From contig CAJWYM010000037.1 in the NCBI GenBank assembly GCA_913049555.1, positions 1-36,200 on the forward strand: a stretch of 36,200 nt of DNA, read 5' to 3'. Shown in pieces: positions 5,232-32,482 of the stretch. Within the stretch, counting starts at the first letter, position 1. Every line of letters starts with the position of its first letter. A model generated the notes under the pieces. That model was given only the letters and a program-made list of their open reading frames with translations. It was not told where the DNA came from and made no database searches. The DNA comes from an uncultured Opitutia bacterium. GTDB lineage: Bacteria > Verrucomicrobiota > Verrucomicrobiia > Opitutales > CAJWYM01. Made by a program: the position numbers and the translations under genes.

Positions 5232-6263
5232 TTACAATTCTCGGATCCAGAAGTTCCGATATTGAACTGCATGTCCATGATCCTGAAGTTGGATAAATCC
5301 TGGCTCGTTCGAGGGTGAACGTGCACTCATTGTCTTCTTGGTAGCATTCTCATCAAACAAGACTTGCTGATTGTGGATGAGAACTCCGTTGTGCTTGACA
5401 GTCATTTTCGGTTTAGATATCAGCAAACCAGATTCTTCAAATTGAGCGGCTTGGTAGACGATATCATAAGTTTGCCACTGCTCTGGGGGGGCACACATAT
5501 TTACTTTGGGGGGGGATAATTTGTAAAGGGCCCCGCATTGTCTCCAATCTCCCTCAAGACCATAACTATCTAGGATTTGAACTTCATATTTTGAATGAAT
5601 AAATAAACCGGAGTTTCCTCGGTTTTGACCTGTGTTACCTGGGAGATAGGGCATTTTAAACTCTAAATGGAGCTCGCAGGACTTGAAATTTTTTTTTGTT
5701 CGAATGCTGCCTCCATTTTTGTTGCCCTTCTTTTTGGAAAAACATTCTATCACTCCAGCATCTAAAACTTTCCATGTAGCTGGCTTGCTCTTTTCATGTT
5801 CCCATAATTCCAATGAGTTGTCAGGAAAAAGGTCGATTCCCCCTTCAGGCTTTTTTCTTCCAAGAGTTGGAGACAATCGAACGATCTTGTTCATAGAATA
5901 GTTGTAGGAAACTGTTTTGCCTTTTTCTCTCAAAAAAAAAGTTCCAGTCATGCCTGAATCATCGACTTTAAAGTGATGGTCTGTTCCTTTGAACTGGAGG
6001 GATCCATCTTTCAAGGATACTTCTTGTTTGATCTCATAATGGGCTCGGAGGTCAAATTCCATAAAAATCTGAACTTCAAAGATACTGTCTTTTATAGGGA
6101 CCACTTTTCCGGCAAGATAGGGATTTTTAGCCTGCTTGCTGTTAGCGGGTGCCTCGACGTAAGCTCCTTCATAATCTCCGACAAATGAAGGTGGAAGACT
6201 TGCAAAAGTTAGGGGACTAAAAATGGCCAGTAAAAATAAGTATTTTAATTTCATAAGCTCCAT
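5232..6263 (-). CDS. Exported DUF1080 (3-keto-disaccharide hydrolase-like) protein
   Basis: A 343-residue exported protein. The signal peptide covers about 1-22 (FLLAIFSPLTFA). An N-terminal beta domain (about 23-130) is followed by a linker LGRKKPEGGIDLF and a DUF1080 domain (about 140-343). The DUF1080 domain shows GNSGLFIHSKYEVQILDSYG, a PP-x-VN-x(3)-PP-x(2)-WQTYDI segment and the closing IQLQDHGHAVQYRNFWIREL. DUF1080 has a concanavalin-like fold; some members hydrolyse 3-keto-glucosides and others probably bind glycans. It opens the operon with two sulfatases and the esterase, consistent with glycan processing in the periplasm. ATGs at 6263 and 6254 are both possible; neither has a clear ribosome site. 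The gene carries unusually long homopolymers (see the repeat entry) but is intact as read. Confidence 0.85.
   Translation of the reverse strand: MELMKLKYLFLLAIFSPLTFASLPPSFVGDYEGAYVEAPANSKQAKNPYLAGKVVPIKDSIFEVQIFMEFDLRAHYEIKQEVSLKDGSLQFKGTDHHFKVDDSGMTGTFFLREKGKTVSYNYSMNKIVRLSPTLGRKKPEGGIDLFPDNSLELWEHEKSKPATWKVLDAGVIECFSKKKGNKNGGSIRTKKNFKSCELHLEFKMPYLPGNTGQNRGNSGLFIHSKYEVQILDSYGLEGDWRQCGALYKLSPPKVNMCAPPEQWQTYDIVYQAAQFEESGLLISKPKMTVKHNGVLIHNQQVLFDENATKKTMSARSPSNEPGFIQLQDHGHAVQYRNFWIREL
5485..5515 (-). repeat. Two poly-C tracts (C7 and C8) inside the DUF1080 gene
   Basis: On the coding strand C8 (5508-5515) and C7 (5485-5491) lie 16 bases apart. They encode the two Pro-Pro pairs of the DUF1080 core. 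The same gene also has an A9 run (5689-5697) and a T9 run (5932-5940 on the plus strand as A9). Such tracts are slippage-prone and stand out in AT-rich DNA. The frame is open in this copy. Confidence 0.7.
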
Positions 6264-6742: not shown

Positions 6743-9700
6743 CTATCGAATTTTTACATTCAGATTCCTACCCTCATTGCCTATGATTGAAAAGTCCTCA
6801 AGACGCTTCATTTTTTCGCCGTTTATTGAAAGGTTTCTAATGTTAATATTCCTCATGAAATCATCGGGTGCTTTGGGGCGAGTACCAAAAATACTCGTCC
6901 TGTTTTGCTTTCCATATACACTAAAATCATCAAAGGTGAAGTGATCCGCACTGAGCATTTTAGTCTCTTTTGTCTGAGCAATTGCAGTAAACATAAAAGT
7001 GGAATTTATGTTTGTCTCAAAATAAATGTCCTTCATCACGATGTCTGTAATGTATGCGTAAGGAAAGCGATCGTGATTGAAACCAAACCAAACTCCTCCT
7101 CCTGCAGGACTGTAATGAGTTTCCCTCAAATTTTTAACCTGTCCTCCTCCGTATCGCCCATCAATAGCAGTCACATTTCGAATCACAACATGACCGAGTG
7201 TTCCCCCATTGGGAACTGCTTTGCGTTGAATACAAAATAAATTGGCATTGTTTTGCTGCCAAGCCAACCACCCATCAATATCCAGACCTGTTTGAAAATA
7301 GGTTCCATCGTCTGCTTGAGTGGTGAAAATATTTCGGCGTTTGTAACCCCAACCACAGGCATCTGTATTGCCATGAAAACCATGTATAATTTTAATATTT
7401 TCGCAAGCGGCTGTGGTATTGCTAGACATCATTTTAGGACCATGGTGGTGTCTTCCCATCAAAACCAAACCCTCCAAAATTCCATTGTTAGACTCTTTGC
7501 TTATTTTAATTATTTTTATGCTTTCGCAATACTTGAACCAATCCATCTGTTCGGCAGAGAGAATGCCCCGACCTCGGATCGTTATATTGCTACTGGCTCC
7601 AATGTTTTCTTTCATCTCATCAGAGTCTTTAAAGAGAATAAAATCCTCCGGATTGTTGTAAGCTTGAAAGCTATGACTGTCATAAATTTTTTTATTAAAA
7701 AATCCTCTTTTTACTCCAAAGTTTGAAAGTTTTTCCCACTTTTTAGTCATGGAAGAAATGGTTCCTGCTACATAAGATCCGCCTGCTAAGTAGATTGTCT
7801 GATTGCTGTAAATTGGAAAATAAAACCCAATATCATGATAACCAGGTGCAAAGCGAATCACTCGATAATCTTTTAATCTTGAACGGTTTACAGCCTTTCG
7901 ATAATCCTCATTGGGTAAAATCGTTAATACGGCTGGATCCGATGGGTCTGGAACCGACTTCTCTGGTGGATTGCCAAATAAAAATAAAGGACGACACCAA
8001 TCATTGTTAACAATCACAATGAGATATCTTGGCTGATCCACTGAGAATGAAATTTTTCTATTTCCTTCGCTTAAAATCGGTTTAATTCCATAGCGTCTGG
8101 GTATGATCACAACGTCTTCTGCTGCTGGAGCCGCCTCTTTCATTTTAATTGAGATTTCTACAGGTCCCTTGTGCGTATAATTGCTAAAGTGCTCTGTCAT
8201 GGCTGGTGGAGGATTCATCAACCTGTCGTTGCCGCCTGTCATGAAGATTCCTACATTCTCATATACATAGGACTCTTTAGGAAGGGATCCACTGGATTTT
8301 TGAGCGACGCTCACTTCATAGTCTGAGGAAGCGTTGGCATAAGTTCTGGGATCGTCAATCCCTGAGTACACATCCAAAAAATCTTTGTCCATGTCCGGCA
8401 ATGTTTCGATTCCCTCTATACTGGCACCTGTTGCTTCCATTTTAAGTAATCTTGAAATGGATTCAGATTTATTCTTATAGACCACATCGTGGGCAAATCT
8501 TGAACCGTATTCGTCTCCATACTGATCTTTACGAGGATAGCTTTTTAGACCTCCCACAAATGGAATCTCTTTGCGTTTGGGCATTTTGATTTTTTTATCT
8601 TTCCCTTTAGCAATCCTATTTCCTTCAACAGAAAAATTGTATACATAGTCTTGAATACTGTCACCGAACTTAACAGCTCTTCCATTGCAGGTAATGTTGC
8701 TTATGCTTACATTCCTGACTGATGCCTCTTCACTAAACCCAAAGGCCTCCAAGCCTAAAAAAAAGGTTTTATTACTGGGATTGTCTGCAACAATAGCCAC
8801 ATTATCAATAGTCACATTTTTGATACTTCCTTGATATTTCCCTCTTCGATAAGGAGAGTAACCCATACCCATGTAAACTAATTTTGGACTATCTGTGGTT
8901 CCGGGAGGCATGATATACTTGATGCCAGAAAAATTGAAATTACTCAAATTCCCATGACTGGCATTGGTAATTCTGATTAGATTTTTACAATTCCCAACGA
9001 TCAAATTATCAATCACCTGAATGTCATCTACATCATGTTGAATTCGATCTCCAAAGACTAAGGGTTGTGCTTTCTCTTTCCGTCCATGCAGAAAATTATT
9101 TCTTATCAAACCATTAGACCCGAGGACTCTTATGAGACGAGTATCACTGGAACAATAATTATTTTGAACCGTAGCATTTTTTCCAACACAGATGGTTCCA
9201 AATTTACTAAAATGGTTCATGATTTTAACGTTCTCTATGGTTGTATTGCTACTCATTCCGTAAATGGAAGCATCAGGGGAATAGATAATCGTTATTCCTC
9301 GAACGGTTTGTTTGTCAGCCTGTTCTCTGTTAGCCCCACCAAGATAGATTGCATTGTTGTAAAAATTGGTGGGTCGAGGAAGATATTTAGTGTTCGGTGA
9401 ACTGCCCATGTAAAAGACTTCCCCTGACAAAATTCCTCGACCAATCACTTTTGCGCCATTAGCCCCCTCTCTTTTGCAAGAGAGGGTTCCCTTGAGATAA
9501 GCGCCTGCCTCTAAATATAATGTTTGTCCTGATTTGAGTGGAAATTGGGCCCCAATCTCATGAATTCCAGCAGTAAAATAGAGGACTTTCTTGTCGCTGT
9601 TCTCATAACTATACCGACTCATCCCCTCATGAATAATGAATGTATCCGATGCCAGAGGATTGGGTTTGATTTCTTCTGGCTTTTCGGCAAATACCAAAAA

Positions 9701-10480
9701 TCTCGAATCATATTGTTGATTCACGGAAAGATAATATTTCTCTCCTGCTGTAACCTTGAAGGAGATTGCATCTTTAGCATCGTTGATACTATGACTGATT
9801 GGATCCCCACTTTGATTGATTAAAAAGACTTCTTTAATTTTCTTTTTATTTTTCAGAGGCTTTACTGTCAATTCAGGGTTTTCGATTGTTTCCAAGGAAA
9901 CCCATGAGTCTCGAATGGTGAATACATCATTTTCACCATTTGCTGCACCGGGAACAAAATCCTCTCGAAAGTCATTGGGAGCTGCATAAAAAACATAAGC
10001 TTCTTCTCCATTCACTTTCGCTGAAAAATCTTTACTAGATTGAATGCCTTCCGGTGCTCTATAAGTAATAGTCTTTTGATCTTCACTAATAGAAGGAATT
10101 GGAACGTAGGAAGCAAAATCAGAATTGTCTTGATTGGATGAGACACTTTTTACTAGAGGAACTGAAGATTTTGATGGATTGGGCTCCTCCGGTTGTGAAT
10201 CAAGAGAAATATTTTCTTCAAGAAGCTTGGGTTTTGATTCTACTTTAGGATCTGATTGAACCGATTGATAAGAAAAATCACTGGAATACCTATTTTTTAG
10301 AAAAAATAAAAGACCACCACAACAAATAGCAAAAGTTAAAAAAATGAAAAATACACCCAATAATGGAACGCTCTTTTCCTGTTTAGAAGTGACTGGCTTC
10401 ACTGGTTTTTTGTTACCAAGGGGAATTTTTCTTGGGATGACTCTTTTGTTGGCCAAAGTAATTTTCTTCTTTTGATTCAT
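6743..10480 (-). CDS. Membrane-anchored tandem beta-helix protein, GH28/GH49-like second module
   Basis: A 1245-residue protein from the ATG at 10480; a TTG at 10531 would add 17 residues. A K/R-rich N-terminus (about 1-38) precedes one membrane segment (about 39-61, FFIFLTFAICCGGLLFFL). This gives a type II anchor with the rest outside. A polar linker follows. Then a beta-sandwich-like domain plus parallel beta-helix occurs twice, with helices at about 283-620 and 848-1245. Each helix opens with matching blocks: YFTAGIHEIG / RFAPGYHDIG, QTLYLEAGAYLKGT / QTIYLAGGSYVAGT and GRGILSGE / GRGILSAE. The second module has HGNTDACG (NTD at 1038-1040) and QADDGTYF (Asp1057-Asp1058), followed by WQQNNANLF. 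This resembles the catalytic Asp arrangement of GH28/GH49 glycosidases. The first module lacks these residues (SSDTRLIRV instead). I infer a backbone-cleaving glycosidase with one active and one binding or degenerate half. Transcribed alone. The exact GH family is uncertain. Confidence 0.75.
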   Translation of the reverse strand: MNQKKKITLANKRVIPRKIPLGNKKPVKPVTSKQEKSVPLLGVFFIFLTFAICCGGLLFFLKNRYSSDFSYQSVQSDPKVESKPKLLEENISLDSQPEEPNPSKSSVPLVKSVSSNQDNSDFASYVPIPSISEDQKTITYRAPEGIQSSKDFSAKVNGEEAYVFYAAPNDFREDFVPGAANGENDVFTIRDSWVSLETIENPELTVKPLKNKKKIKEVFLINQSGDPISHSINDAKDAISFKVTAGEKYYLSVNQQYDSRFLVFAEKPEEIKPNPLASDTFIIHEGMSRYSYENSDKKVLYFTAGIHEIGAQFPLKSGQTLYLEAGAYLKGTLSCKREGANGAKVIGRGILSGEVFYMGSSPNTKYLPRPTNFYNNAIYLGGANREQADKQTVRGITIIYSPDASIYGMSSNTTIENVKIMNHFSKFGTICVGKNATVQNNYCSSDTRLIRVLGSNGLIRNNFLHGRKEKAQPLVFGDRIQHDVDDIQVIDNLIVGNCKNLIRITNASHGNLSNFNFSGIKYIMPPGTTDSPKLVYMGMGYSPYRRGKYQGSIKNVTIDNVAIVADNPSNKTFFLGLEAFGFSEEASVRNVSISNITCNGRAVKFGDSIQDYVYNFSVEGNRIAKGKDKKIKMPKRKEIPFVGGLKSYPRKDQYGDEYGSRFAHDVVYKNKSESISRLLKMEATGASIEGIETLPDMDKDFLDVYSGIDDPRTYANASSDYEVSVAQKSSGSLPKESYVYENVGIFMTGGNDRLMNPPPAMTEHFSNYTHKGPVEISIKMKEAAPAAEDVVIIPRRYGIKPILSEGNRKISFSVDQPRYLIVIVNNDWCRPLFLFGNPPEKSVPDPSDPAVLTILPNEDYRKAVNRSRLKDYRVIRFAPGYHDIGFYFPIYSNQTIYLAGGSYVAGTISSMTKKWEKLSNFGVKRGFFNKKIYDSHSFQAYNNPEDFILFKDSDEMKENIGASSNITIRGRGILSAEQMDWFKYCESIKIIKISKESNNGILEGLVLMGRHHHGPKMMSSNTTAACENIKIIHGFHGNTDACGWGYKRRNIFTTQADDGTYFQTGLDIDGWLAWQQNNANLFCIQRKAVPNGGTLGHVVIRNVTAIDGRYGGGQVKNLRETHYSPAGGGVWFGFNHDRFPYAYITDIVMKDIYFETNINSTFMFTAIAQTKETKMLSADHFTFDDFSVYGKQNRTSIFGTRPKAPDDFMRNINIRNLSINGEKMKRLEDFSIIGNEGRNLNVKIR

Positions 10481-11172
10481 ATTAAGGAGATTAGGAACGA
10501 TTTCGAGCAAAAGGAATTTTTGAAAATTCAAGGAATAGAATTTTTTCAGTCACAGAATTTTCATTCAATCGAAGAGGAGCATCGTAAGAAAAAGATAAAG
10601 AACTAATTGGATAGAATAAAGGCATTGAAGAAAACGCCGATACAATCCTTTTTATACATTTATTCTCTATTTTTAACCTATTCCTTTTCATACATCAGCA
10701 ATTCATCTCAATCCGTTAGATCCTGTACTTTTTTGTTTTATTTTAGGAAATAAGAGTTGTTTAAACTAATTATTTACTACAATCGTAACTCAATTCAGAT
10801 TGCGAACAGACGCATGAAAAAAAATTGGTTCAAAAAATATTTTTGAACCAATCACAACCCTCTTTAGTCAATGGATGAAACTGAGATAGAGATCAGGTGG
10901 AGTCCAATTTTAAGAAAAAGTGCTTTTCAGAACCTAAAAAATCTAACCATATAGATTTCAATAAATCCGTATTATATAGTTTCAAAAAATTGAATCCAAT
11001 TCTTGAAAAACAAACCTTCAATCAAGCCGTTGTCTCTAATTTTGAATTCATCTATAAATAACAGGCAATTTAACAGGTTAAAAAGTTTTAAACCATGGGT
11101 ATGAAAACTTATAGGGAAAAAGCTGAAAAATATTTAGTAGAATTTCAGACATCGCCAGGTTCTTTTATGATC
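10481..11172. other. Long intergenic region between the beta-helix gene and the sulfatase array
   Basis: A 692-base gap holding a perfect hairpin (listed separately) and no supported gene. A 66-codon minus-strand frame at 10491-10691 has no protein-like features or start signal. The left part should contain the promoter of the beta-helix gene. Just upstream of the ATG at 10480 the minus strand reads TCTCCTTAAT, so there is no Shine-Dalgarno sequence. Confidence 0.5.
10817..10852 (-). terminator. Strong hairpin with T8 tail ending the sulfatase array
   Basis: ATTGGTTCAAAAA (10824-10836) and TTTTTGAACCAAT (10840-10852) form a perfect 13-bp stem with a 3-base loop. On the minus strand it runs directly into eight Ts (10824-10817, the last shared with the stem). 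This is an intrinsic-terminator layout for transcripts coming from sulfatase 3, about 320 bases downstream of its stop. The stem is AT-rich. Confidence 0.6.
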
Positions 11173-12639
11173 CTAGAGACTTTTTTTGCTAGACTTCTTT
11201 TTAAACTTATTATTTGGACCTCTTTCTTCGTTGTTCTTGGGAAGTAGAGATTTAAAATGTGCCTTGATTTTGGCAAATTCAGGATTGTTTGCCAAATTTT
11301 TATACTCCATCGGGTCTGATTCATGATCATACAATTCCTCAGCTCCCTTGCCACCTCCATACCAAATGTATCGATATCTACCATCTGTTAAAGAGTGATT
11401 CTTGAAACCGATGGTTGTCAAGGTAGGCTCATTCCATTTCATTTGTGGATTCTCAATGAGCTTTACAAAACTTCTTCCATCGTTTTTTGGATTTGCAGGT
11501 AGACCACAAAGTTCCAATAAAGTTGGATACATATCCAGAAGATTTATGACCCCGTCACTTTTAGCGCCTTCACTGACCCCAGGGACACGAACCATAAAGG
11601 GAACTCGAGCCGCTTCCTCCCACAATCCTGTTTTTCTGTATTTTAATTTTTCTCCCAAATACCATCCATGATCTCCCCACAACATGACAATGGTGTTGTC
11701 TGCATATTGACTGTTTGCTAAAACCTCAAAAAGCATTCCTAAACAATCATCCGCATAGGTCACACTAGCCATGTAGGCTCGATTGAGAGCTAAGTGGGCA
11801 TTGCTCTTCTCTACCGCCATCCAAGTAACATTCGGGCCTTTGAAAGCAGGCTTACCGTCTGGATTGAGTATGTCATCGTAATCATCTAATTTAAAAGGGG
11901 CAATCTTCACATTTTCCTCAGGGTACATATCAAAATATTTTTGAGGAACAAAAAACGGAAGGTGAGGCCTTGAAATTCCAAGTGCCATGAAGAAAGGTTT
12001 GCCATCAAAATCTCTCTCAAGCTGGTCGGCTGCCCATTTGGCATTCACATAATCTTTTGTTTTTTCTAAAGGAGCCTTGGTTGCTCCCCATTGCAGGGGA
12101 CTACCCCCGTATTTGTGATCTGGATGCACTGCCATTTTCTTCCATAACATTCCTCCAGATCCAGGTTCCGTTTTGGGTTTGGCAAATTCGTGAAAGGCCC
12201 ATTGTCCCTCATCGAGCCCTTCTGCTGTTTGGTGTTTGTGGAAAATCTTTCCGGCTGAAAGAGTGTGATAACCACGATTCCCAAAATACTCTGGTAATGT
12301 TTCTAAATCTTTAGCCTTGGGAGCCATTTTGAGATTGGTTTCGTTTCCATACACTCCTGTGTTGTGACAATATTTACCTGTCAATAATGCAGAACGAGAA
12401 GGACCGCAAACTGTGGATCCACAGTAAGCCTTACTCATTACGATAGACTTTTTTGCAAATCGATCCAAATGAGGGGTTTTTACTTGTGGATTACCACCCA
12501 TGGGCCCAATCCAGTCATTGAGATCGTCGATGGCAATGAAAAGCACATTCAACTTTTCATTGGACTCTTTGGCTGTGCCTTCAAGATAGAGTGCTATCAG
12601 ACCACCAATTAAAAAGAGGTTTAAAAGAATTTTTTTCAT
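11173..12639 (-). CDS. Secreted sulfatase, iduronate-2-sulfatase-like (sulfatase 3)
   Basis: A 488-residue sulfatase, signal peptide about 1-23. The Asp pair sits in FIAIDDLNDW, typical of the iduronate-2-sulfatase-like subgroup (S1_7 in my recollection). So do CGPSRSALLTGKYCHNTGVY (Cys78), the GKIFH motif in place of GKWH, SRPHLPF, and WGDHGWYLGEKLKYRK. Family S1 activity needs Cys78 converted to formylglycine. The C-terminal 20 residues (469-488) are rich in Lys and Ser and look like an added basic tail. It lies 44 bases downstream of the redoxin-like gene, so the two probably share a transcript. It is the last gene of the array and is followed by a good terminator hairpin. Naturally occurring substrate unknown; sequence resemblance alone does not show that it acts on iduronate. 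Confidence 0.93.
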   Translation of the reverse strand: MKKILLNLFLIGGLIALYLEGTAKESNEKLNVLFIAIDDLNDWIGPMGGNPQVKTPHLDRFAKKSIVMSKAYCGSTVCGPSRSALLTGKYCHNTGVYGNETNLKMAPKAKDLETLPEYFGNRGYHTLSAGKIFHKHQTAEGLDEGQWAFHEFAKPKTEPGSGGMLWKKMAVHPDHKYGGSPLQWGATKAPLEKTKDYVNAKWAADQLERDFDGKPFFMALGISRPHLPFFVPQKYFDMYPEENVKIAPFKLDDYDDILNPDGKPAFKGPNVTWMAVEKSNAHLALNRAYMASVTYADDCLGMLFEVLANSQYADNTIVMLWGDHGWYLGEKLKYRKTGLWEEAARVPFMVRVPGVSEGAKSDGVINLLDMYPTLLELCGLPANPKNDGRSFVKLIENPQMKWNEPTLTTIGFKNHSLTDGRYRYIWYGGGKGAEELYDHESDPMEYKNLANNPEFAKIKAHFKSLLPKNNEERGPNNKFKKKSSKKSL

Positions 12640-13523: not shown

Positions 13524-15440
13524 CTATAATAAGATGTCCATTTTGGATTTAAATTCCTCTAATTTTTTAGTAAATGTTGATTGGAGCTTCATTCCTTGCA
13601 TTGCTTTTTCGATTTCAATCCCTTCTTTACCAATCATACGTAAATTCGCCCAAACTCTTAATGAAGTGATTGGTTTGCCTTTAGCGTTTAAAACCTCCGC
13701 CATAGACTGAAAGGCTGCCTCTTTATCTACATTGATTCTGTAGAGGAAAAAAGCTGCCATCGCTCTGGCATCATGGCTAGCTTTGTCTTCGATATCACTT
13801 TTGATCAACCCTTTCATGGATTCTACAATCTCTGGAGTATTTGCTTTTTGATCCAACTGAATGCAACCAAGCACCCCCCAATAACGGAACACTTCGTCTT
13901 TGGATTGGAGGAGTTCCATCAGCTTTGCGAGGTCTTCGACTGTTGCAAAATTTGCTAAATCGGCAGCCTCCATGTACGCAGCTTGGTCATAAAGCTGAGG
14001 GTTTCTGATCATTTCATAGATCGTAGTTTTATTGCTTGATGCTCGATGAGCCAAAGTGGCTTCTGGTGCAAATCCGCAGTCGTGTAGTTTTAAAATATAT
14101 TCTTTTAGGGAATTGCGCATTCGTTTGAGTGTTTTCGAATGAGCGGAATCATACGCTAAATTATGAACGTTGTCAGGATCTGAAAGGGTGTCAAAAAGTT
14201 GTTCTACTGGCTTTGGACGAAAAAAAGCACCCGTTATTTCATCGGTTTTTCCTTGCTGATGGTGTCTAGCCCAAGCGGACATCGAAGGTGCCTTCCAGAG
14301 GTAATCTAAGTGCTGCCCATTTGGACGAAAAGATTCGTAATTCCTAATATATAAATATCGCTTGTCTCGAATTGCTCTTTGCATATCTGGAACTTCATCC
14401 ATTCTTTGCCTAGCCATGTGAACATACTCTCTGGGAGTTTCTTTTTGTTCTCCAAGAAAGCTATTTCCTTGCATGGTGTCTGGGATTTCAGAACCCGTCA
14501 TGGAGAGCCAAGTTTTAGGCATATCAATAAAACTTACCAAACGTTCCATAACAGCTCCCGGATTTTCTGCAGGCCAAAGATGTTTGAATTTTTCAGGGAT
14601 ACGCACAATTAAAGAAGAATGCGTTCCGGAATCGTAGAGAAATCTTTTACTTCTCCCAAGAACCCCACCATGATCTGAACCGTAGATCACAATTGTATCC
14701 TCAGACAAGCCATCTTTTTCAAGCTCTTTCAAAACTTTTCCAAAGGTAGCATCCGCTTTCATAACTCCGTTTGTGTAACGCGCATAATCGATGCGCATTT
14801 CAGGAATGTCAGGATGGTAAGCAGCAAGCTTCATATCCTCAGGTTTTACATCCCCAATCTTTCCTCTACCTTCCTGCAAGTATCCTTCATGGCATCCTGC
14901 ATTGTTCATGATTACAAAAAAAGGCTGATCTGACTTGCGATCCGAATTGCGCCATCCGTATTGTTCATAGGAATCCCAGGTCTTTATGAAGTGACCGCAA
15001 TTGCCCTCATTGGGTCCTCCTCCTTTTCCTGTTCTTCGTGTAGAGGTGTTGTAATCCGTCTTGCGAAAATTAACAGTGTAATAACCATTGGATCTCAAAG
15101 AATCTGGATACCAAGCTAAATCTGGGGTCTCGTAAGTGCTTCTCATGTAAACGGTGCCAAGTGATGTGGGATGAATACCTGTGATCCAACCACTCCGAGC
15201 TGGAGCGCAGACTGGGGATTGGGCGAAACAATTTTTATATAAAAAACCTTCTTTGGCAAAGCCATCGATATTCGGAGTTTTAATCCGTTCGTTGCCATAG
15301 CATCCAAGCCACTTAGCGCTCATGTCCTCTCCAGTGATCCATAAGACATTGGGCTTTTTAATTTCATCTGCGATCAATAAAATCGAAGACAACAAAAATA
15401 AAAAGAGGTAAAAGAATTGTTTAAAAATTTGGTAAATCAT
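13524..15440 (-). CDS. Secreted sulfatase with C-terminal helical-repeat (HEAT-like) tail (sulfatase 4)
   Basis: 638 residues from the ATG at 15440; another ATG two codons earlier (15446) is possible. I prefer 15440 because it aligns exactly with the start of sulfatase 5 in a shared leader. The signal peptide is about 1-24 (LFLFLLSSILLIADE). The metal site reads ITGEDMS (Glu-Asp, not Asp-Asp). The modification site is CAPAR (Cys78). KTDYN replaces the usual GKWH, a subgroup trait, and YGSDHGG supplies the later metal ligands. After about residue 455 comes a helical region with AADLANFATVEDLAKLMELL and FRYWGVLGCIQL, resembling HEAT-type repeats as found in heparan N-sulfatase-like PVC proteins. 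The family could act on sulfate esters or sulfamates; which is not decidable here. It lies 174 bases after sulfatase 5. Confidence 0.9.
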   Translation of the reverse strand: MIYQIFKQFFYLFLFLLSSILLIADEIKKPNVLWITGEDMSAKWLGCYGNERIKTPNIDGFAKEGFLYKNCFAQSPVCAPARSGWITGIHPTSLGTVYMRSTYETPDLAWYPDSLRSNGYYTVNFRKTDYNTSTRRTGKGGGPNEGNCGHFIKTWDSYEQYGWRNSDRKSDQPFFVIMNNAGCHEGYLQEGRGKIGDVKPEDMKLAAYHPDIPEMRIDYARYTNGVMKADATFGKVLKELEKDGLSEDTIVIYGSDHGGVLGRSKRFLYDSGTHSSLIVRIPEKFKHLWPAENPGAVMERLVSFIDMPKTWLSMTGSEIPDTMQGNSFLGEQKETPREYVHMARQRMDEVPDMQRAIRDKRYLYIRNYESFRPNGQHLDYLWKAPSMSAWARHHQQGKTDEITGAFFRPKPVEQLFDTLSDPDNVHNLAYDSAHSKTLKRMRNSLKEYILKLHDCGFAPEATLAHRASSNKTTIYEMIRNPQLYDQAAYMEAADLANFATVEDLAKLMELLQSKDEVFRYWGVLGCIQLDQKANTPEIVESMKGLIKSDIEDKASHDARAMAAFFLYRINVDKEAAFQSMAEVLNAKGKPITSLRVWANLRMIGKEGIEIEKAMQGMKLQSTFTKKLEEFKSKMDILL

Positions 15441-18859: not shown

Positions 18860-20338
18860 TTATTTTTTACGCTTTACCATCACCACTTCCTCATCGGGCA
18901 CTTCATAATAATCGCGCAATTTTTGTAACTCTAAATGCATTTTTTTAAGATTGGTTGAATATTCTGGTTTGCTATAAATGTTATTCAACTCCGAGGGATC
19001 TTTTTTAAGATTGAACAATTCCCAATTGTCAATTCCTTTAGTTTTACTTCCATAAAAACGGATCAGTTTAAAATTGCCATCGCTGACTCCCTCGTGTCGA
19101 GTTACCCCATGACCTCCATCCATATAATAGTGGTAGTACAAACTGGATCGCCAATCCTCAGGAGTTTCCGACTTCATAAGAGGAACTAGACTTTCACCCT
19201 GCATTTCATTGGGAATTTCTACCCCGGCTAGGTCTAAAAAAGTAGGAGCAAAATCTATATTTTGACCTAAATCTGTATTCACACTCCCAGCCTTTACAAT
19301 TCCTGGCCATTTAACAATCAATGGAGTTCGAAATGATTCCTCATACATCCATCTTTTGTCAAACCAACCATGCTCTCCCAAGTAGAACCCTTGGTCCGAA
19401 GAAAACATCACAACGGTGTTTTTTGTGAGTCCTTGTTCCTCTATTTCATCCAGCAAACGACCTACATTTTCATCGACTCCAGCCACACATCCAAAATAAT
19501 CTTGCATGTAGGCTTGGTACTTCAATCTAGCTAAAGTATTTTTATCTATATTTTTATCTAATAGTTTAGAACGATGAGCCCATTTGTCAGCTTTCAGGTC
19601 TCCGATGTTTTTCATGTGTTCTTTTATTCCCATATTGTGGAGCTTTGCCATCTCACGAGTTTGATAGGTATCCATAAAGGAATTTGGTTCTGGGAAGGAG
19701 GTATCCTTAAATTTATCAACAAATCGTTGTGCGGGTGTCCAATTTCTGTGGGGGGCTTTGTAATGAACCATCAAAATAAAAGGAGATTCCTTATTTCTTT
19801 TATTCAGCAACCAATCCATTGCATGATTCGTAATCACATCCGTAGAATGTCCCTCTGTATTTATTAGGCCCTTTGCGGTTTTGAATTTAGGATTTATATA
19901 TTTGCCGTGTCCGGGCAGTGTTTCCCAATAATCAAATCCCTGCAATTCTCCTTTAAGATGGGTTTTACCAATGAGCGCAGATTGATACCCTCCCTCTTTG
20001 AGCAACTTCTGGAATTGCATTTGATCGTGATTGAAATCTTCAATATTGCCATATTTCCCATTTTTATGACTATGTTTACCAGTCAACAAAGTGGCACGAC
20101 TTGGAGCGCAAATAGAATTTCCTACATAAAACTTATCAAAGCGCATTCCTTTTTCAGCAATTTGATCTATGTTTGGAGTTAAATTCATGGGTGAGAAATG
20201 ACTTTGATAGGCTCCCAAAGCATTCACCGCCATATCGTCACAAAAAATCCACAATATATTAGGACTTTTTGAAGCTTCAAGGACGGAAAAAAACCCAAAA
20301 AATACAGCGAATATAAAGGGTATTATCTTGGATTTCAT
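18860..20338 (-). CDS. Secreted sulfatase, N-acetylglucosamine-6-sulfatase-like (S1_11-like) (sulfatase 7)
   Basis: A 492-residue sulfatase; signal peptide about 1-23 (FIFAVFFGFFSVLEAS). It carries IFCDDMAVNALGAY, CAPSRATLLTGKHSHKNG (Cys78), GKTHLKG, HYKAPHRNW and SSDQGFYLGEHGW. The run FDKRWMYEESFRTPLIVKWP is characteristic of the S1_11 group, whose studied members include glucosamine-6-O-sulfatases. Such resemblance suggests a 6-O-sulfated hexosamine-like site, but the group is broad and the real substrate is not shown. The protein ends in a short basic VKRKK. It lies 30 bases after sulfatase 8 and 53 before sulfatase 6, so the three are probably co-transcribed. Confidence 0.93.
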   Translation of the reverse strand: MKSKIIPFIFAVFFGFFSVLEASKSPNILWIFCDDMAVNALGAYQSHFSPMNLTPNIDQIAEKGMRFDKFYVGNSICAPSRATLLTGKHSHKNGKYGNIEDFNHDQMQFQKLLKEGGYQSALIGKTHLKGELQGFDYWETLPGHGKYINPKFKTAKGLINTEGHSTDVITNHAMDWLLNKRNKESPFILMVHYKAPHRNWTPAQRFVDKFKDTSFPEPNSFMDTYQTREMAKLHNMGIKEHMKNIGDLKADKWAHRSKLLDKNIDKNTLARLKYQAYMQDYFGCVAGVDENVGRLLDEIEEQGLTKNTVVMFSSDQGFYLGEHGWFDKRWMYEESFRTPLIVKWPGIVKAGSVNTDLGQNIDFAPTFLDLAGVEIPNEMQGESLVPLMKSETPEDWRSSLYYHYYMDGGHGVTRHEGVSDGNFKLIRFYGSKTKGIDNWELFNLKKDPSELNNIYSKPEYSTNLKKMHLELQKLRDYYEVPDEEVVMVKRKK

Positions 20339-24300: not shown

Positions 24301-25866
24301 ATGAACCCAAGATTTCTAAAACAAATTTATTTCATGAAATTAGCACGATTTCTAGTCTGCTTTTTATTTCTATCTTATTCAGCACTCAAGGCAGAAAGTT
24401 ATTATTTCGATTCTTCCATTGGTAAGGATTCAAACCATGGATTGAGCCCTGAATCCCCGTTCAAAACATTAAAAAAGTTGAATCAACTGATTTTTAAACC
24501 GGGCGATCAAATTTTACTACGCTCAGGATCCGTCTTTTATGGACAAATAAAACCCAAAGGATCTGGTTCTTTGAAGAATCCCATTTTACTAAGTTCTTAC
24601 CATGCAGGAAACAAACCGATTATTGATGCACAAGGGAAATTTGAATCCACTCTTTTTATTGAGAATATATCCCACTGGATTGTGGAAAATCTTGAAATTG
24701 TAAATTTTGGCGAAAAACCAGAACCTGGAAGAATGGGAATCTATCTACTCGCAAATCAAGGAGAGGTCCAAGGGTTAGTAATTAGAGAGTTATTGGTGAG
24801 AGATGTAAATGGGGTCCTTTCTCGAACAAGAGGAAATGGATTTGGTCTTCGGTGGTCCACACAAAGTCATAAAATCCCTTCACGTTTCAATGGTCTCATT
24901 ATTGAAAATTGCCACTTTCTTCGATGCGATCGAAATGCAATTGAAGGAACTCTATGGCCTATTAAAGGACTTAAAAATCTGAGCGTCCATGTGGTTATTA
25001 GAAATAATCTGATAGAAGATGTAGGTGGTGATGCTATTGTTGTCATTGGTTGTGACGGAGCATTGGTAGAGAAAAACAGAGTTTATGGCGCCAGAAAAAG
25101 ATTTGATACCCAAAATCAAAGCGTGGTAGAAGATGCAGGACCCTCAATTGGTATTTGGCCTTGGAGCAGTATCAATACCCGAGTTCAATTCAATGAAGTT
25201 TGGGGATATAAAGGCATTTATGACGGACAAGGTTTTGACTCAGACTTTAACTGTGACGGTTCTTTATTTGAATACAATTTCAGTGGTGAGAACGAAGGGG
25301 GATTTTTCTTGATTTGCAACAACGAAAAATGGAAAGCAGATGGAAGATCTATAGGGAATAAGAATACGGTAGTTCGTCATAACATAAGCTTCAATGATAG
25401 AAAACGAGGGTTTGTCATAGACGGAAGTGTAAAAAATGTCATGGTCCGAGAGAATATTATTTATAACAATATTGATGAGGTCTTCTCAGCAGTGATTGAA
25501 ACGTCAAAAAATCAAAGCAAAGAAAGTATTCAAGTGCTAGGAAATTATTTTTATACTACTGGAAAAAGCAAAATACATAAAGGAAAGTGGGCAGGAAAGC
25601 ATTCTGTAGGCGAATGGTTGGACAATGGACCCATCAATAGTGAGTTGTTTTTATTTAAGGAAAATTCTTACACTTATAAAAACGAAACCGAAGAGTTGGG
25701 TGTAAAAACTCTTAAAAATGAAGAGACAATTCTGAGCCTAATCCATCGATTCAAAAAAGATAAAGAGGTTTATGAGGGGTTTTTTAAGTTGATTGATTTT
25801 ATGAAAGATTCTAAAAAATGGCACAAATTAGATGCCCAATTCCCGTTGAATAAGGATCCCTTATAA
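24301..25866 (+). CDS. Secreted right-handed parallel beta-helix protein (lyase or glycosidase-like)
   Basis: 521 residues from ATG 24301. An ATG at 24334 gives a cleaner signal peptide (KLARFLVCFLFLSYSALKA), and I cannot decide between them. The mature start, YYFDSSIGKDSNHGLSPESPF, is the opening of many beta-helix polysaccharide lyases and glycosidases. It is followed by KPGDQILLRSGSVFYGQI and many beta-helix rungs with N-rich turns (IENCHFLRCDRNAIEG, VIRNNLIEDVGGDAI, VQFNEVWGYKGIYDGQGFDSD). The Pfam beta_helix fold is clear; a catalytic family is not. A conserved acidic cluster lies around DGQGFDSDFNCDGS. Its place beside ten sulfatases suggests work on the glycan backbone. It is divergent from sulfatase 9. 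Confidence 0.8.
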   Translation: MNPRFLKQIYFMKLARFLVCFLFLSYSALKAESYYFDSSIGKDSNHGLSPESPFKTLKKLNQLIFKPGDQILLRSGSVFYGQIKPKGSGSLKNPILLSSYHAGNKPIIDAQGKFESTLFIENISHWIVENLEIVNFGEKPEPGRMGIYLLANQGEVQGLVIRELLVRDVNGVLSRTRGNGFGLRWSTQSHKIPSRFNGLIIENCHFLRCDRNAIEGTLWPIKGLKNLSVHVVIRNNLIEDVGGDAIVVIGCDGALVEKNRVYGARKRFDTQNQSVVEDAGPSIGIWPWSSINTRVQFNEVWGYKGIYDGQGFDSDFNCDGSLFEYNFSGENEGGFFLICNNEKWKADGRSIGNKNTVVRHNISFNDRKRGFVIDGSVKNVMVRENIIYNNIDEVFSAVIETSKNQSKESIQVLGNYFYTTGKSKIHKGKWAGKHSVGEWLDNGPINSELFLFKENSYTYKNETEELGVKTLKNEETILSLIHRFKKDKEVYEGFFKLIDFMKDSKKWHKLDAQFPLNKDPL

Positions 25867-26873: not shown

Positions 26874-28058
26874 GTGAAGAAAATACTTAAATTATTTTCA
26901 TCGCTAAGGTTGACTGTTACTCTCTTGTCACTCTCCATGGTTGTGATCTTTTTTGGCACATTAGACCAAGTAGAGTATGGGATTCACCATACCCAAAAAA
27001 GGTATTTTGAGAGTTATTTTGTAATCTGGCAGTATCCGGAACAATGGATCTATTCAAATATTCTAGGTTTTGTTGCAATCCCAATGCCTGGGGGTCACTT
27101 ACTTGGATATTTACTACTAATAAATCTATTAACAGCCCATTTATCCCGTTTCAAACTTACAGCAAAAAAACTGGGCATCAATGTTCTGCATGCAGGATTG
27201 ATTCTTCTAGTGATTTCTGAGTTTATGACAGACTATCTAGCGATTGAATCTCAAATGAGCGTCAACGAAGGAGGCAGCTCCAATTACACTTTCTCAATCA
27301 CTGAAAAAGAAATGGTCCTGATTGATCACTCAGACCCTGATTCAGACACCGTCTATTCAGTGCCTTCCGATCAACTCAAGAAGGATAAAAGTTTAAATAT
27401 AAATGGCACTCCATTTCAAATCAACACACACGAGTACTATGAAAATTCTAAACTGAGTATCGCACCCCCAAATGCTCCTTCAATGCGAATACCTATTACT
27501 GCTGGATGGGGAGAGAATATGAATCTACGTGTGGCTGAGAAAGATTATGATTATTCTGACAATGCCTCCAATATTTCCTCTGCAATCGTGACGATTGCTT
27601 CAGGCACCCAACCTCTCGGAACGTGGGTTCTTTCAAACATCATAAACAACCAATTACCCACCCAAAAGTTTGAACATGAAGGGAAGGAATATTCCATAGC
27701 TCTCAGATTTACTCGGTATTATTTACCGTATAAAATTGAACTGATTGACTTCACCCATGATAAATATCCGGGGACCGAAATCCCCAGAAATTTTTCAAGT
27801 AAAATTCGAGTACAAAATGAATCTCAAAATGACGAGGATCGTGAAGTTCTCATTTACATGAACAATCCTTTGAGGTACGAGGGACTTACTTTCTATCAAC
27901 AATCTTTCGACAATGATGAGACCACATCTATCTTTCAAGTAGTCAAAAACCCAAGTTGGTGGATGCCTTATTTATCAGTAAGTATGGTTGGATTGGGACT
28001 TTTGATTCAATTTCTCTATCACTTTACAAAATTTATAAAGAAGAGCGCAAAATCATGA
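26874..28058 (+). CDS. resB: Cytochrome c biogenesis protein ResB (Ccs1)
   Basis: A 394-residue membrane protein starting with GTG two bases after the lipoprotein stop. It opens with LRLTVTLLSLSMVVIFFGTL (first membrane segment, 11-30) and DQVEYGIHHTQKRYFESYF, typical of ResB. Membrane segments follow at about 70-90 and 101-122, the latter containing His106 in LHAGLIL. A large periplasmic domain comes next, then the NNPLRYEGLTFYQQSF motif and a last segment at about 362-386. With CcsA it forms the system II complex, which exports haem and joins it to CxxCH of apocytochromes c. The stop overlaps the ccsA start (ATGA), so translation is coupled. The assignment is firm. Confidence 0.92.
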   Translation: MKKILKLFSSLRLTVTLLSLSMVVIFFGTLDQVEYGIHHTQKRYFESYFVIWQYPEQWIYSNILGFVAIPMPGGHLLGYLLLINLLTAHLSRFKLTAKKLGINVLHAGLILLVISEFMTDYLAIESQMSVNEGGSSNYTFSITEKEMVLIDHSDPDSDTVYSVPSDQLKKDKSLNINGTPFQINTHEYYENSKLSIAPPNAPSMRIPITAGWGENMNLRVAEKDYDYSDNASNISSAIVTIASGTQPLGTWVLSNIINNQLPTQKFEHEGKEYSIALRFTRYYLPYKIELIDFTHDKYPGTEIPRNFSSKIRVQNESQNDEDREVLIYMNNPLRYEGLTFYQQSFDNDETTSIFQVVKNPSWWMPYLSVSMVGLGLLIQFLYHFTKFIKKSAKS

Positions 28059-29956
28059 AAAAGTTTTTACAAATATCTTTGCCCGCCTTTTTTTTAGTCT
28101 TGCTAATTTTTTATATCTTTAAAGGTCTTGGTCCAAAAAATTACAAACATCTGAATGAAAGACAGGCGTCCGAAAACAAAGAATCCTTTGATGTTGCAAC
28201 CTTTGCAAGCTTACCGGTTTTAGATGGAGGTCGACTCAAACCATGGGATTCTATTGCGAGGAACTCGCTTCTAATTATCCGCGGTAAAGAAAGTATCCGT
28301 ATAGAAAAAAACACCATTACAGCCACAGAATGGTTGATGGATGTTCTGATGAATCCGGAAAAAGCAGACAATTATCCAATATTTCGAATTGATCATACGG
28401 ATGTTCTAGGCTTATTTGGCTGGAAACAAACCGATCAAAAGTATTTTTCAATCAAGGAACTTCAGGAACATTTCCCTAAAATTGATGAGCAATTTAAAAA
28501 AGTAAATCCTAAATCTCAACTTCGCAATACCTACGAAAAAGCGATCGTTAAATTGTTTCAATCCATCAATATTTATCATTCTCTTGTTCATTCAATTCAC
28601 TCCATGATAAGTCCGGGAGCTTTGACTAAGGAATATGAAGCTTTTGAAAAAGGGATCGTTGAAGGAGTGGTTGCAATCGATCTCCAACAAAAAGGAGAGA
28701 AGTTTGATAAAGATGCCATCAACCGCTTTATGCTTTTTGCAGATCATTACTTGGAGCTTTCTAAATTCGCGACTATATTGACCGTTCCAATTCAAGCCGG
28801 CAAAAGCATTCAAGAACCTGGTGAATGGTTGAATATGGGCCAAGCTTTGATGGAACGCATTAAGAAGGATCGTTTCCACCCCGCAGTGCTTCTTTATGGA
28901 AAACTCACTGAATCTTTTAGGATTGGAGATGCTGCCACATTCAACGCCTCTGTCAAAGATTTAAAATATGAATTAGAACAATATCTCCCCGCGCGTGCTA
29001 AAATTGATTTGGAATATCAATTCAACAAATTTGCGGCATTTTATTTGTCTAAGATTTATTACATAGTAATTTTTGTATTAAGTTTTTTAGCGATTTTATT
29101 TCGATCAAAAGAAATGGGTAAATGGATTTATTACTTACTCTTAATGACTGCTTTGATCCATTCCGTAGGTCTAATTGTAAGGATGTACATTCAAGCTAGG
29201 CCTCCTGTAACAAATCTTTATTCATCGGCTATTTTCATAGGATGGATCGCTGTATTATTAGGGGTATTGTTAGAAAAATATTTCAGGAACTGCGTAGGAG
29301 CAATTACCGCGGCCAGTGTTGGTTTTGTAACTCTTCTAGTCGCTAAACATTTGGAAATGAGTGGAGACCAGATGGAGATGATGCGGGCAGTTTTGGATGA
29401 TAACTTTTGGCTAGCTACTCACGTTCCTACAGTTACAATTGGATATGCTGCCACTTATTTAGCGGGTTTTATAGGGATCGTTTACATTTTCATGGGAACG
29501 CTTTCGGATCGCTTGAACAAACAGATGTCTAAAAATCTCTATGCAATGGTCTATGGCATCACTTGCTTCGCAGTCTTGTTTAGTTTCATTGGAACTATGC
29601 TAGGTGGAATTTGGGCCGATGATTCATGGGGTCGTTTTTGGGGTTGGGATCCAAAGGAAAATGGGGCTTTACTCATTGTGATATGGAATGCGGTGATGCT
29701 GCACGCTCGATGGGGAGGATTTGCAAAAGAGCGCGGTATTATGGTGATGGCGGTTTTTGGAAATATTGTAACTACTTGGTCTTACTTCGGAACCAACATG
29801 CTGGGAGTTGGGTTGCATTCCTATGGTTTTATGGACAGCGCTTTTTTCTGGTTGATGGTTTTCAATGCCGTTATGATTGGGATCATGATTTTAGGTAGTT
29901 TTCCCTTCGAAAAATGGAAGAGCTACTCATCGATCCGTGGCATTAAAAGCCACTGA
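28055..29956 (+). CDS. ccsA: Cytochrome c biogenesis protein CcsA with large N-terminal domain
   Basis: 633 residues from the ATG at 28055, overlapping the resB stop by four bases; an in-frame TTG further upstream would lie inside resB. A signal-anchor (about 7-24) is followed by a soluble domain of about 300 residues with the conserved FASLPVLDGGRLKPWDSIARN. The CcsA membrane domain begins near 330 and has seven or eight hydrophobic segments. The haem-handling WWD motif is WGRFWGWDPKE (about 525-535), and PPVTNLYSSAIFIGW and LATHVPTVTIGYA are further CcsA landmarks. It partners ResB in system II haem delivery. The long N-terminal domain is common in PVC and related bacteria and absent from short chloroplast-type CcsA. 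Confidence 0.93.
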   Translation: MKKFLQISLPAFFLVLLIFYIFKGLGPKNYKHLNERQASENKESFDVATFASLPVLDGGRLKPWDSIARNSLLIIRGKESIRIEKNTITATEWLMDVLMNPEKADNYPIFRIDHTDVLGLFGWKQTDQKYFSIKELQEHFPKIDEQFKKVNPKSQLRNTYEKAIVKLFQSINIYHSLVHSIHSMISPGALTKEYEAFEKGIVEGVVAIDLQQKGEKFDKDAINRFMLFADHYLELSKFATILTVPIQAGKSIQEPGEWLNMGQALMERIKKDRFHPAVLLYGKLTESFRIGDAATFNASVKDLKYELEQYLPARAKIDLEYQFNKFAAFYLSKIYYIVIFVLSFLAILFRSKEMGKWIYYLLLMTALIHSVGLIVRMYIQARPPVTNLYSSAIFIGWIAVLLGVLLEKYFRNCVGAITAASVGFVTLLVAKHLEMSGDQMEMMRAVLDDNFWLATHVPTVTIGYAATYLAGFIGIVYIFMGTLSDRLNKQMSKNLYAMVYGITCFAVLFSFIGTMLGGIWADDSWGRFWGWDPKENGALLIVIWNAVMLHARWGGFAKERGIMVMAVFGNIVTTWSYFGTNMLGVGLHSYGFMDSAFFWLMVFNAVMIGIMILGSFPFEKWKSYSSIRGIKSH

Positions 29957-30469: not shown

Positions 30470-32482
30470 ATGCTTATTAGGATCGTTTTTTTATTTTGTT
30501 TTTTACTTTTTAATTTTATCTGGGGCCAACAAAAGCCGAATGTGCTCATGATTATAGTGGATGACTTGAATGATTTGCCACTTCATCCAGAGTTTAAACC
30601 TCAAGCCAAAACGCCAAATATAGATCGCATTTCGAAACAGGGAGTTAATTTTACAAATGCCCATTGTAACAATCCAGTATGTGAACCTTCAAGAAATAGT
30701 CTTTTCTTTGGTCTCTATCCACAAACCACCGGTTTACACTGGTTTGAGCATTCTGAAAAAAATGAAATACTAAAAAATAGCACTCCATTGCAAGAACATC
30801 TACAATCGAATGGCTATCAAGCATTTGGAACGGGTAAAATTTTCCATTCCACTCGCAGGAATAAATCTTTTGATGAATGGGGGCATGACCTCAATTATGG
30901 TCCATGGCCTTGGGATGGAAGACAAAAAAGCCGTTATGGTTTTTTACCGCATCCCTCCCAAAGCGATTTTTTAAAGGCCTCAGCTGACGTTCCCTTTGCT
31001 TGGGAACACTGCTTTGGAACTTTTGAAAAGGTTCCTCATTGGGCCCCAGACCCCAAAAACAATATCCCCGGCTACAAAGGATGGACTCTATATACAGAGC
31101 CTTGGGAGTTCGATTCTAATGGCAAGAGAGATTTAGTTGCTGATGAACTCTCAGCACAATGGGCAGCGAATAAGCTCCGGAGAAAATCAAAGCAACCCTT
31201 TGCTCTTTTTGTCGGATTGACAAAAACGCATACGCCTCTTTACGCTCCAAAATCCTACTTTGATCGCTATCCTCTCGACGAGATAAAAATCCCAAAAAAT
31301 TGGAATTATATAGAGCAAAATCTAGGAAAATTAGAGGACAAAAAATTGTATGGATTTAGACGTTATGAAATGCTAATGAAGTATGGAGGTGAGCTTTATT
31401 TAAAAAAATGGATACAAGCTTATCTAGCGTGTTTATCCTTTGTAGATGATCAAGTGGGAATCCTTTTAGATGCGTTAGAAAGTTCACCCCATAAGGACAA
31501 TACAGTTGTGATATTTACAAGTGATCACGGCTTCCATATGGGTGATAAAGATTTTCTTTACAAAGGAAGTTTATGGGAATCGTCCACTAAAATCCCTCTT
31601 CTCATATCTGGAGTTCATGGTATGGATAAGGGGGTCATTTGCCAAAAACCCGTTTCATTGATTGATTTATATCCAACCTTTGTAGATTTGTGTCAATTGC
31701 CCCAAAATCCAAATTCTAAAAAGAGTGGTTACGATCTAGATGGGCACAGCCTAGTTCCTCTTCTAAATAAAAAAACCAAAGAAAATTGGTCAGGTCCTGA
31801 GGTTGCGATTACCTCCTTAGCTGGTGAGGATCATATGCATTTAACAAACAGAATTGGGATTCCTTATCCAAGTTTTAGTGTAAAATCAAAAGCATGGAGA
31901 TTGATTTTAAGCTCATCTGGAGAAGAAGCCCTTTACCATACTGCCAAGGATCATTACGAACAGATAGATCTGTCTAAAGACCCCATGTTTTATGAAAAGA
32001 AACTGGAGCTCAAATCCAAACTTATCAGACTGAAAGATGGAAAAAAATGGAACTCTTTAATGCCAAAGAGTGAGTGGAAACTTAAAATTGAGCCTTATAA
32101 AGAAAATTGGAGAAGGGACTTATTAGAATTTAAAACCCAGGGCTCATTTGAGTTAGAATCCAAATTGAACTACAAAAGCTTTGAAATTGAATTTGAGTTG
32201 AAATCGAAACAAGTGCTTCACTTTCAAAAAGCAGATGAAAGCTTTATGCTTCAGAATAAAAGCTTTTCTGGAATATGGTCTGATGTAACTGTAAATAGAA
32301 ACAATTGGAACCACTTCAAAATAAATGTATTGGGGGATCGCTATCAACTTTGGATCAATCACCACTTATTTTTAGATAAAAGATCCGAGTCAATAAAAAG
32401 AGAAGATTCTATTAAGATTTTTACAGATTCAACAGAAGTTGAAACCCTATCATTTAGAGGAATGAGGCTAAAAAAGCTCTGA
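30470..32482 (+). CDS. Secreted iduronate-2-sulfatase-like sulfatase fused to a DUF1080-like domain (sulfatase 10)
   Basis: A 670-residue protein with a signal peptide (about 1-19, FLFCFLLFNFIWG). The catalytic domain (about 20-540) resembles sulfatase 3: IIVDDLNDLP, CEPSRNSLFFGLYPQTTG (Cys71), GKIFHSTRR, LTKTHTPLYAP and TSDHGFHMGDKDFLYKG. These are traits of the iduronate-2-sulfatase-like branch. The extra 128 residues (543-670) are beta-rich and contain NNWNHFKINVLGDRYQLWIN and end in VETLSFRGMRLKKL. This is the C-terminal half-pattern of DUF1080/concanavalin-like domains, so a glycan-binding role is plausible. It stands apart from the main array, on the opposite strand, behind the cytochrome c operon. 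Confidence 0.88.
   Translation: MLIRIVFLFCFLLFNFIWGQQKPNVLMIIVDDLNDLPLHPEFKPQAKTPNIDRISKQGVNFTNAHCNNPVCEPSRNSLFFGLYPQTTGLHWFEHSEKNEILKNSTPLQEHLQSNGYQAFGTGKIFHSTRRNKSFDEWGHDLNYGPWPWDGRQKSRYGFLPHPSQSDFLKASADVPFAWEHCFGTFEKVPHWAPDPKNNIPGYKGWTLYTEPWEFDSNGKRDLVADELSAQWAANKLRRKSKQPFALFVGLTKTHTPLYAPKSYFDRYPLDEIKIPKNWNYIEQNLGKLEDKKLYGFRRYEMLMKYGGELYLKKWIQAYLACLSFVDDQVGILLDALESSPHKDNTVVIFTSDHGFHMGDKDFLYKGSLWESSTKIPLLISGVHGMDKGVICQKPVSLIDLYPTFVDLCQLPQNPNSKKSGYDLDGHSLVPLLNKKTKENWSGPEVAITSLAGEDHMHLTNRIGIPYPSFSVKSKAWRLILSSSGEEALYHTAKDHYEQIDLSKDPMFYEKKLELKSKLIRLKDGKKWNSLMPKSEWKLKIEPYKENWRRDLLEFKTQGSFELESKLNYKSFEIEFELKSKQVLHFQKADESFMLQNKSFSGIWSDVTVNRNNWNHFKINVLGDRYQLWINHHLFLDKRSESIKREDSIKIFTDSTEVETLSFRGMRLKKL

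Follow-up and report, generated by a model that had tools for sequence, protein, structure and literature searches.

A gene on the minus strand of the window (the whole stretch of DNA analysed here, 36,200 nucleotides from an uncultured Opitutia bacterium) encodes a protein of two modules, both of which belong to the lineage of glycoside hydrolase family 49 (GH49; dextranase and isopullulanase, clan GH-N), the C module being placed there via profiles only. The C module retains the three catalytic Asp residues of this lineage and the N module has lost all of them, and the gene lies among S1 sulfatases. We consider it probable that the product is an exported, inverting hydrolase of GH49 descent that acts on a sulfated algal polysaccharide, with an active C module and an inactive N module that serves in binding or scaffolding.

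In the study of marine carbon turnover, the enzymes able to open up sulfated algal polysaccharides form a bottleneck; at loci rich in sulfatases, annotation often fails to reveal which enzyme cuts the backbone. The family described here is conserved between Verrucomicrobiota and Bacteroidota and was missed by the library models that we tried. It offers a clear natural example of a glycosidase fold that selection has preserved after the entire catalytic triad was lost, and its three mutable residues and two separable modules make it testable.

RESULTS

A single open frame encodes two similar modules

The open reading frame specifies 1262 aa when read from a TTG codon; a start at the ATG that begins at position 10480 gives 1245 aa. 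Residues are counted here from the TTG; the initial annotation counted from the ATG, and its numbers equal ours minus 17. The features of the gene are as follows.

6743 to 10531, minus strand: two-module GH49-like gene; single open frame, with seven orthologs of matching layout
10298 to 10354, minus strand: single hydrophobic segment (residues 60 to 78) after a K/R-rich N terminus, from hydropathy; probable signal anchor
8327 to 10078, minus strand: N module (residues 152 to 735), sandwich and GH49-like beta-helix without all three catalytic Asp residues, from profile, model, and alignment
9124 to 9195, minus strand: former active-site region of the N module (approximately residues 446 to 469), with G, T, and R in the catalytic columns
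6746 to 8341, minus strand: C module (residues 731 to 1262), sandwich and GH49-like beta-helix with intact Asp triad, from profile alignments
7307 to 7363, minus strand: catalytic triad of the C module, D1057 (of NTD) and D1074 and D1075 (DD), from profile alignments; conserved in 8/8 proteins

The repeat blocks from which a duplicated architecture had been proposed were all found in place (FTAGIHEIG at residue 319 and FAPGYHDIG at 894, GAYLKGT at 343 and GSYVAGT at 918, GRGILS at 364 and 987), as were the motifs assigned to the second half only: NTD occurs once in the protein, at residues 1055 to 1057, and DD is at 1074 to 1075. Compared as single sequences, the halves align over 109 residues at 29% identity (blastp E value, 1e-11; phmmer E value, 2e-14), and on this alignment their similarity is not due to chance; their family profiles align with an hhalign E value of 9e-15. 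The proposed order of sandwich followed by beta-helix in both halves also held.

The hydrophobic segment has a mean hydropathy of 2.66 and is followed by a linker of ~70 residues before the first module. In the orthologs, the first module begins after ~35 to 70 residues, and the N termini resemble, by eye, ordinary signal peptides; on this ground we rejected a membrane anchor as a trait of the family. The tether to the inner membrane that had been suggested thus keeps its sequence features, a K/R-rich N terminus and one hydrophobic segment, but not as a family trait. Export would be common to the family, and anchoring in the membrane would be peculiar to the window protein.

The N module resembles GH49 enzymes in structure, and the C module is linked to them by profiles

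A profile of the N module matched the dextranase 6nzs (E value, 7e-17) and isopullulanase (5e-7) in the PDB and, weakly, Dex49A. A structure predicted from an alignment of seven N modules was of fair quality (pLDDT 72, pTM 0.75), apart from the C-terminal ~90 residues (approximately residues 645 to 735), where model confidence is low and the model unreliable. The best Foldseek matches were isopullulanase and two dextranases, all of them GH49 (E values, 3e-12 to 1e-10). Superposition on the GH49 structures 1wmr, 6nzs, and 1ogm gave Z scores of 29.2, 27.7, and 27.3 over 435 to 443 residues, sandwich included, the aligned part being residues 1 to 486 of the model; the highest of these scores is that of isopullulanase, over 436 residues. 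Sequence identity in these alignments is 13 to 17%. GH28 structures reached Z scores of up to 25 on the helix part alone and left the sandwich unmatched, and no structure of GH82 (iota-carrageenase) stood among the fold matches listed for the N module.

Prediction of the C module was poor (pLDDT 44), and the fold matches therefore concern the N module only. By itself, the C-module family profile had no match in the PDB. Single-module GH49-like relatives, however, align with the C module over nearly its whole length (hhalign E value, 1e-51; 5e-48 for the N module), and when a profile was built from the C modules together with four of these relatives, its significant PDB matches were all GH49 (E values, 6e-41 to 7e-28). 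Isopullulanase was matched at 6e-41 over nearly the full length, with the triad columns aligned. The link between the C module and GH49 thus runs through intermediate relatives, the weak second domain of one profile match, and one subthreshold Pfam match. The superposition proposed in the initial annotation could in consequence be made for the N module, which was GH49-like, and not for the C module, where the triad rests on profile alignments; these alignments do bear out that NTD and DD of the second half are positioned as in GH49. The sandwich and right-handed parallel beta-helix of GH49 are accordingly present in the N module by model and in the C module by profile alignment.

Pfam and NCBIfam yielded no match to the whole window protein. 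With the curated Pfam GH49 cutoffs at 27 bits (PF03718) and 21.3 bits (PF17433), ortholog L016 matched PF03718 weakly, at 18.7 bits; two module-level GH49 matches had E values of only 0.07 to 0.1; and one single-module relative (L021) exceeded the cutoff of the GH49 N-terminal model. Because it falls below these cutoffs, the protein is classed by sequence as GH49-like and not as a member of GH49. The GH28 model PF00295 did not match the protein at E values up to 1, its sole match in this genome being C51.

The C module retains, and the N module has lost, the catalytic triad

HMMER places the triad columns of the C module on Asp residues of 6nzs and isopullulanase that we take to be the GH49 catalytic residues. 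We aligned 28 single modules, 7 N modules, and 8 C modules and read the N module of one truncated ortholog separately. The catalytic columns hold D-D-D in 8/8 C modules and in 26 of the 28 single-module relatives. In the N modules, all three Asp residues are lost in 8/8 cases: the columns read G-[T/V/I]-[R/K] in the seven aligned modules (G, T, and R in the window protein) and G-A-R in the truncated ortholog, in agreement with the proposal that the first half had lost its catalytic residues. The triad of the C module and its flanks (GFHGNTDA, DDGTY, and AWQQNNAN) are invariant in all eight proteins, across two phyla. The triad spacing is 17/18 residues in the C module versus 19/20 in the aligned GH49 sequences, and the DD neighborhood is DDGTY versus DDGLK or DDVLK. 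PMC7939477 likewise gives these GH49 Asp residues as catalytic.

For ortholog pairs with unsaturated synonymous sites, dN/dS was ~0.10 to 0.17 in the N module and 0.05 to 0.13 in the C module; the values are rough, as they come from a simple counting method and dS exceeded 1 in most pairs. Judged by its dN/dS, the inactive N module is maintained by purifying selection and is not decaying.

In two single-module relatives (L029 and L030), the catalytic columns read D-D-T; here the triad may have been partly lost a second time, independently.

Both modules occur together in distantly related bacteria

When 384 genomes of the class were searched, 39 gave matches: the genome of origin, one with a full-length ortholog (45% identity; G177, which is the L043 gene of IMCC26134), and others with single-module relatives, most of them ~450 to 600 aa long. 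Scanning 84,980 species genomes recovered seven orthologs, with both modules in 7/7: in two Kiritimatiellales metagenome-assembled genomes (MAGs), Pontiella sulfatireligans F21 (L041), Flavobacterium luteum, Polaribacter sp. BAL334, Verrucomicrobia IMCC26134 (L043), and a Puniceicoccales MAG, the last cut by a contig end. Scans with the C-module profile at an E value of 1e-30 (346 genomes of the class of the Pontiella carrier and 388 of the phylum of the window) returned the same genes. All 8 C modules found share a frame with an N module; across the ~1,100 genomes covered by scans with the C profile or the full-length protein, none stood alone. The viral contigs scanned held no relative of the two-module protein.

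The six complete orthologs are 69 to 82% identical to one another over their full length, across Flavobacteriia, Kiritimatiellales, and Opitutales, and the window protein is 44 to 46% identical to each of them. Since such identity extends across phyla, the sequences suggest that horizontal transfer lies behind the spread of the family.

In the tree, N modules and C modules form separate, fully supported clades. The free tree keeps them apart, although a joint clade of N and C modules was not rejected (AU P value, 0.24; long branches). Each module is closer to single-module proteins of other Verrucomicrobiota than to its partner, so a recent internal duplication is not supported. The sequences fit either a duplication of great age or the joining of two GH49-like paralogues by fusion.

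The gene and its orthologs lie among sulfatases

The window contains ten Pfam-supported S1 sulfatases in 36 kb (positions 2054 to 24139, minus strand, and 30470 to 32482, plus strand). Several neighbors of the two-module gene have counterparts at the orthologous loci, as follows.

11173 to 12639, minus strand: S1 sulfatase upstream, same strand; 60 to 62% identical to sulfatases of the Pontiella (L041) and IMCC26134 (L043) loci
5232 to 6263, minus strand: protein of 3-keto-disaccharide hydrolase fold; a homologue adjoins the ortholog in L041
3502 to 5133, minus strand: S1 sulfatase; shares 74% identity with the sulfatase adjoining the ortholog in L045
2054 to 3460, minus strand: S1 sulfatase; shares 58% identity with the gene that immediately follows the ortholog in L041
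1073 to 2053, minus strand: alpha/beta-hydrolase (esterase-like); homologues in 4/7 orthologous loci

The sulfatase at 18860 is also related, at 46 to 64%, to genes of the ortholog loci. Sulfatases are present in all eight loci, the seven orthologs all lying near S1 sulfatases. GH36-like proteins occur in the Pontiella, Flavobacterium, and Polaribacter loci; the Flavobacteriia loci have SusC/SusD-like pairs (assigned by resemblance), and the Polaribacter locus has a GH2 protein. A search of the window's own genome, run without a positive control, found no GH36-like partner. Among solved sulfatases, the best PDB matches are labelled arylsulfatases, and they leave the substrate ambiguous. Carrageenans of the kappa and iota types, fucoidan, and chondroitin sulfate all support growth of P. 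sulfatireligans F21 (PMC7356697).

A clear C-x-P/A-S/T-R signature is found in 8 of the 10 window sulfatases; those at 13524 and 30470 were missed by our simple pattern. Between the upstream sulfatase and the two-module gene, a hairpin of 14 pairs followed by a T run (10853 to 10823, minus strand) is a possible terminator; such sites are no commoner in this region than in shuffled sequence.

DISCUSSION

Proposed function and alternatives

The bond that the C module would cleave is an axial glycosidic one, most likely of alpha type, and hydrolysis would be inverting. On the model of GH49 and GH110, the role of general acid would fall to D1074, and D1057 and D1075 would activate water. According to PMC7939477, the fold and catalytic machinery are common to GH28, GH49, GH87, and GH110, and inversion has been shown for GH110. 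All three Asp residues are gone from the N module, yet its fold and sequence remain under selection, and it is for this reason most likely a built-in carbohydrate-binding or scaffolding domain, in line with the earlier suggestion that the first half may bind substrate. The protein would act together with the neighboring S1 sulfatases and the esterase-like hydrolase on a sulfated algal polysaccharide. The GH36-like and GH2 neighbors at ortholog loci incline us, with low confidence, toward a substrate that is perhaps a sulfated galactan; gene context argues against an alpha-glucan such as dextran or pullulan. Somewhat short of an even chance, in our estimate, is the fuller reading that this is an undescribed GH49-related family that cuts a sulfated algal backbone, perhaps that of a galactan. 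In this reading, an obligate pseudoenzyme copy of the catalytic fold, with Gly, a small or aliphatic residue, and a basic residue at its catalytic Asp positions, would hold the sulfated chain for its active partner.

One might suppose that the N module is alive with another catalytic apparatus, built from the R/K and the neighboring Asp, as a lyase or a different hydrolase: its changed columns show good conservation of their own (G, T/V/I/A, and R/K after an invariant D), its dN/dS is low, and in fold it comes near to beta-helix lyases and epimerases. We regard this reading as unlikely: no known active-site motif of beta-helix lyases or epimerases was recognised in the N module, and a binding or scaffolding role explains its conservation equally well. 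Less likely again is that neither module hydrolyses anything and that the protein is a binding or adhesive beta-helix protein whose C-module triad is a remnant. Adhesins such as PfbA do appear among the lower fold matches of the N-module model, and the C module is very divergent, down to its altered DD neighborhood. Yet the triad and flanks of the C module are invariant while the N modules of the same proteins have lost theirs, which indicates selective retention, and the genes sit in degradative loci.

A GH28 polygalacturonase-like enzyme acting on pectin, unconnected with the sulfatases, can be given hardly any credence. GH28 belongs to the same clan and fold, and NTD and DD are also GH28 motifs; the likeness in helix fold was seen on the N module, and the motifs are in the C module only, whose model is poor. 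Against this reading, the significant sequence-profile matches are to GH49 structures only, and the sandwich, which GH49 matches, was left unmatched by GH28; sulfatases, moreover, accompany every one of the eight genes.

Comparison with known systems

With the GH49 dextranases and isopullulanase (6nzs, 1ogm, and 1wmr/3wwg), the protein shares the beta-sandwich and right-handed beta-helix and, in its C module, the Asp plus Asp-Asp triad; it differs in having two modules per chain, the first without a triad, in its sub-cutoff Pfam GH49 scores, and in its setting among sulfatases. GH28 polygalacturonases belong to clan GH-N; their helix fold is similar to that of the N-module model, and their NTD and DD motifs recur in the C module. 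They differ in the absence of a sandwich match and of a profile match and in gene context. The GH110 alpha-1,3-galactosidase PdGH110B of carrageenan degraders is similar in its parallel beta-helix, three-Asp inverting center, and marine sulfated-galactan context, yet it belongs to another family and is exo-acting, and the available text of PMC7939477 reports no inactive second module; GH110 gave no match in our sequence searches with the two-module protein. We found no description of the two-module architecture in the openly accessible literature on GH49 with polysaccharide utilization loci and sulfatases or with carrageenan. What had been put forward as an undescribed glycosidase type is new in part: the predicted chemistry follows GH49 and clan GH-N, and the family branch, with no NCBIfam match and sub-cutoff Pfam scores, and the architecture are new. 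What is novel is thus a branch with two modules that is related to GH49; its catalytic type is not new. The single-module Verrucomicrobiota proteins (e.g., L017, L003, and L021), for which the literature covered describes no function, share the sandwich and helix (full-length hhalign E values of ~1e-47 or better) but have one module and lie outside the N- and C-module clades.

Other genes of the window and the orthologous loci

A 521-aa protein (24301 to 25866, plus strand) with a Pfam right-handed beta-helix match lies divergent from the sulfatase run and is possibly polysaccharide active. ResB-like and cytochrome c assembly proteins are adjacent at 26874 to 29956 (plus strand), beside the sulfatase cluster. 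A protein family with YGxWDRGG near its N terminus recurs beside the orthologs (L039:809-2569, L044:20410-23393, L042:21508-23367, L060, and L062). Most members scanned have no Pfam match and one has a weak match to GH42 (PF02449; E value, 6e-4); this may be an undescribed glycosidase family.
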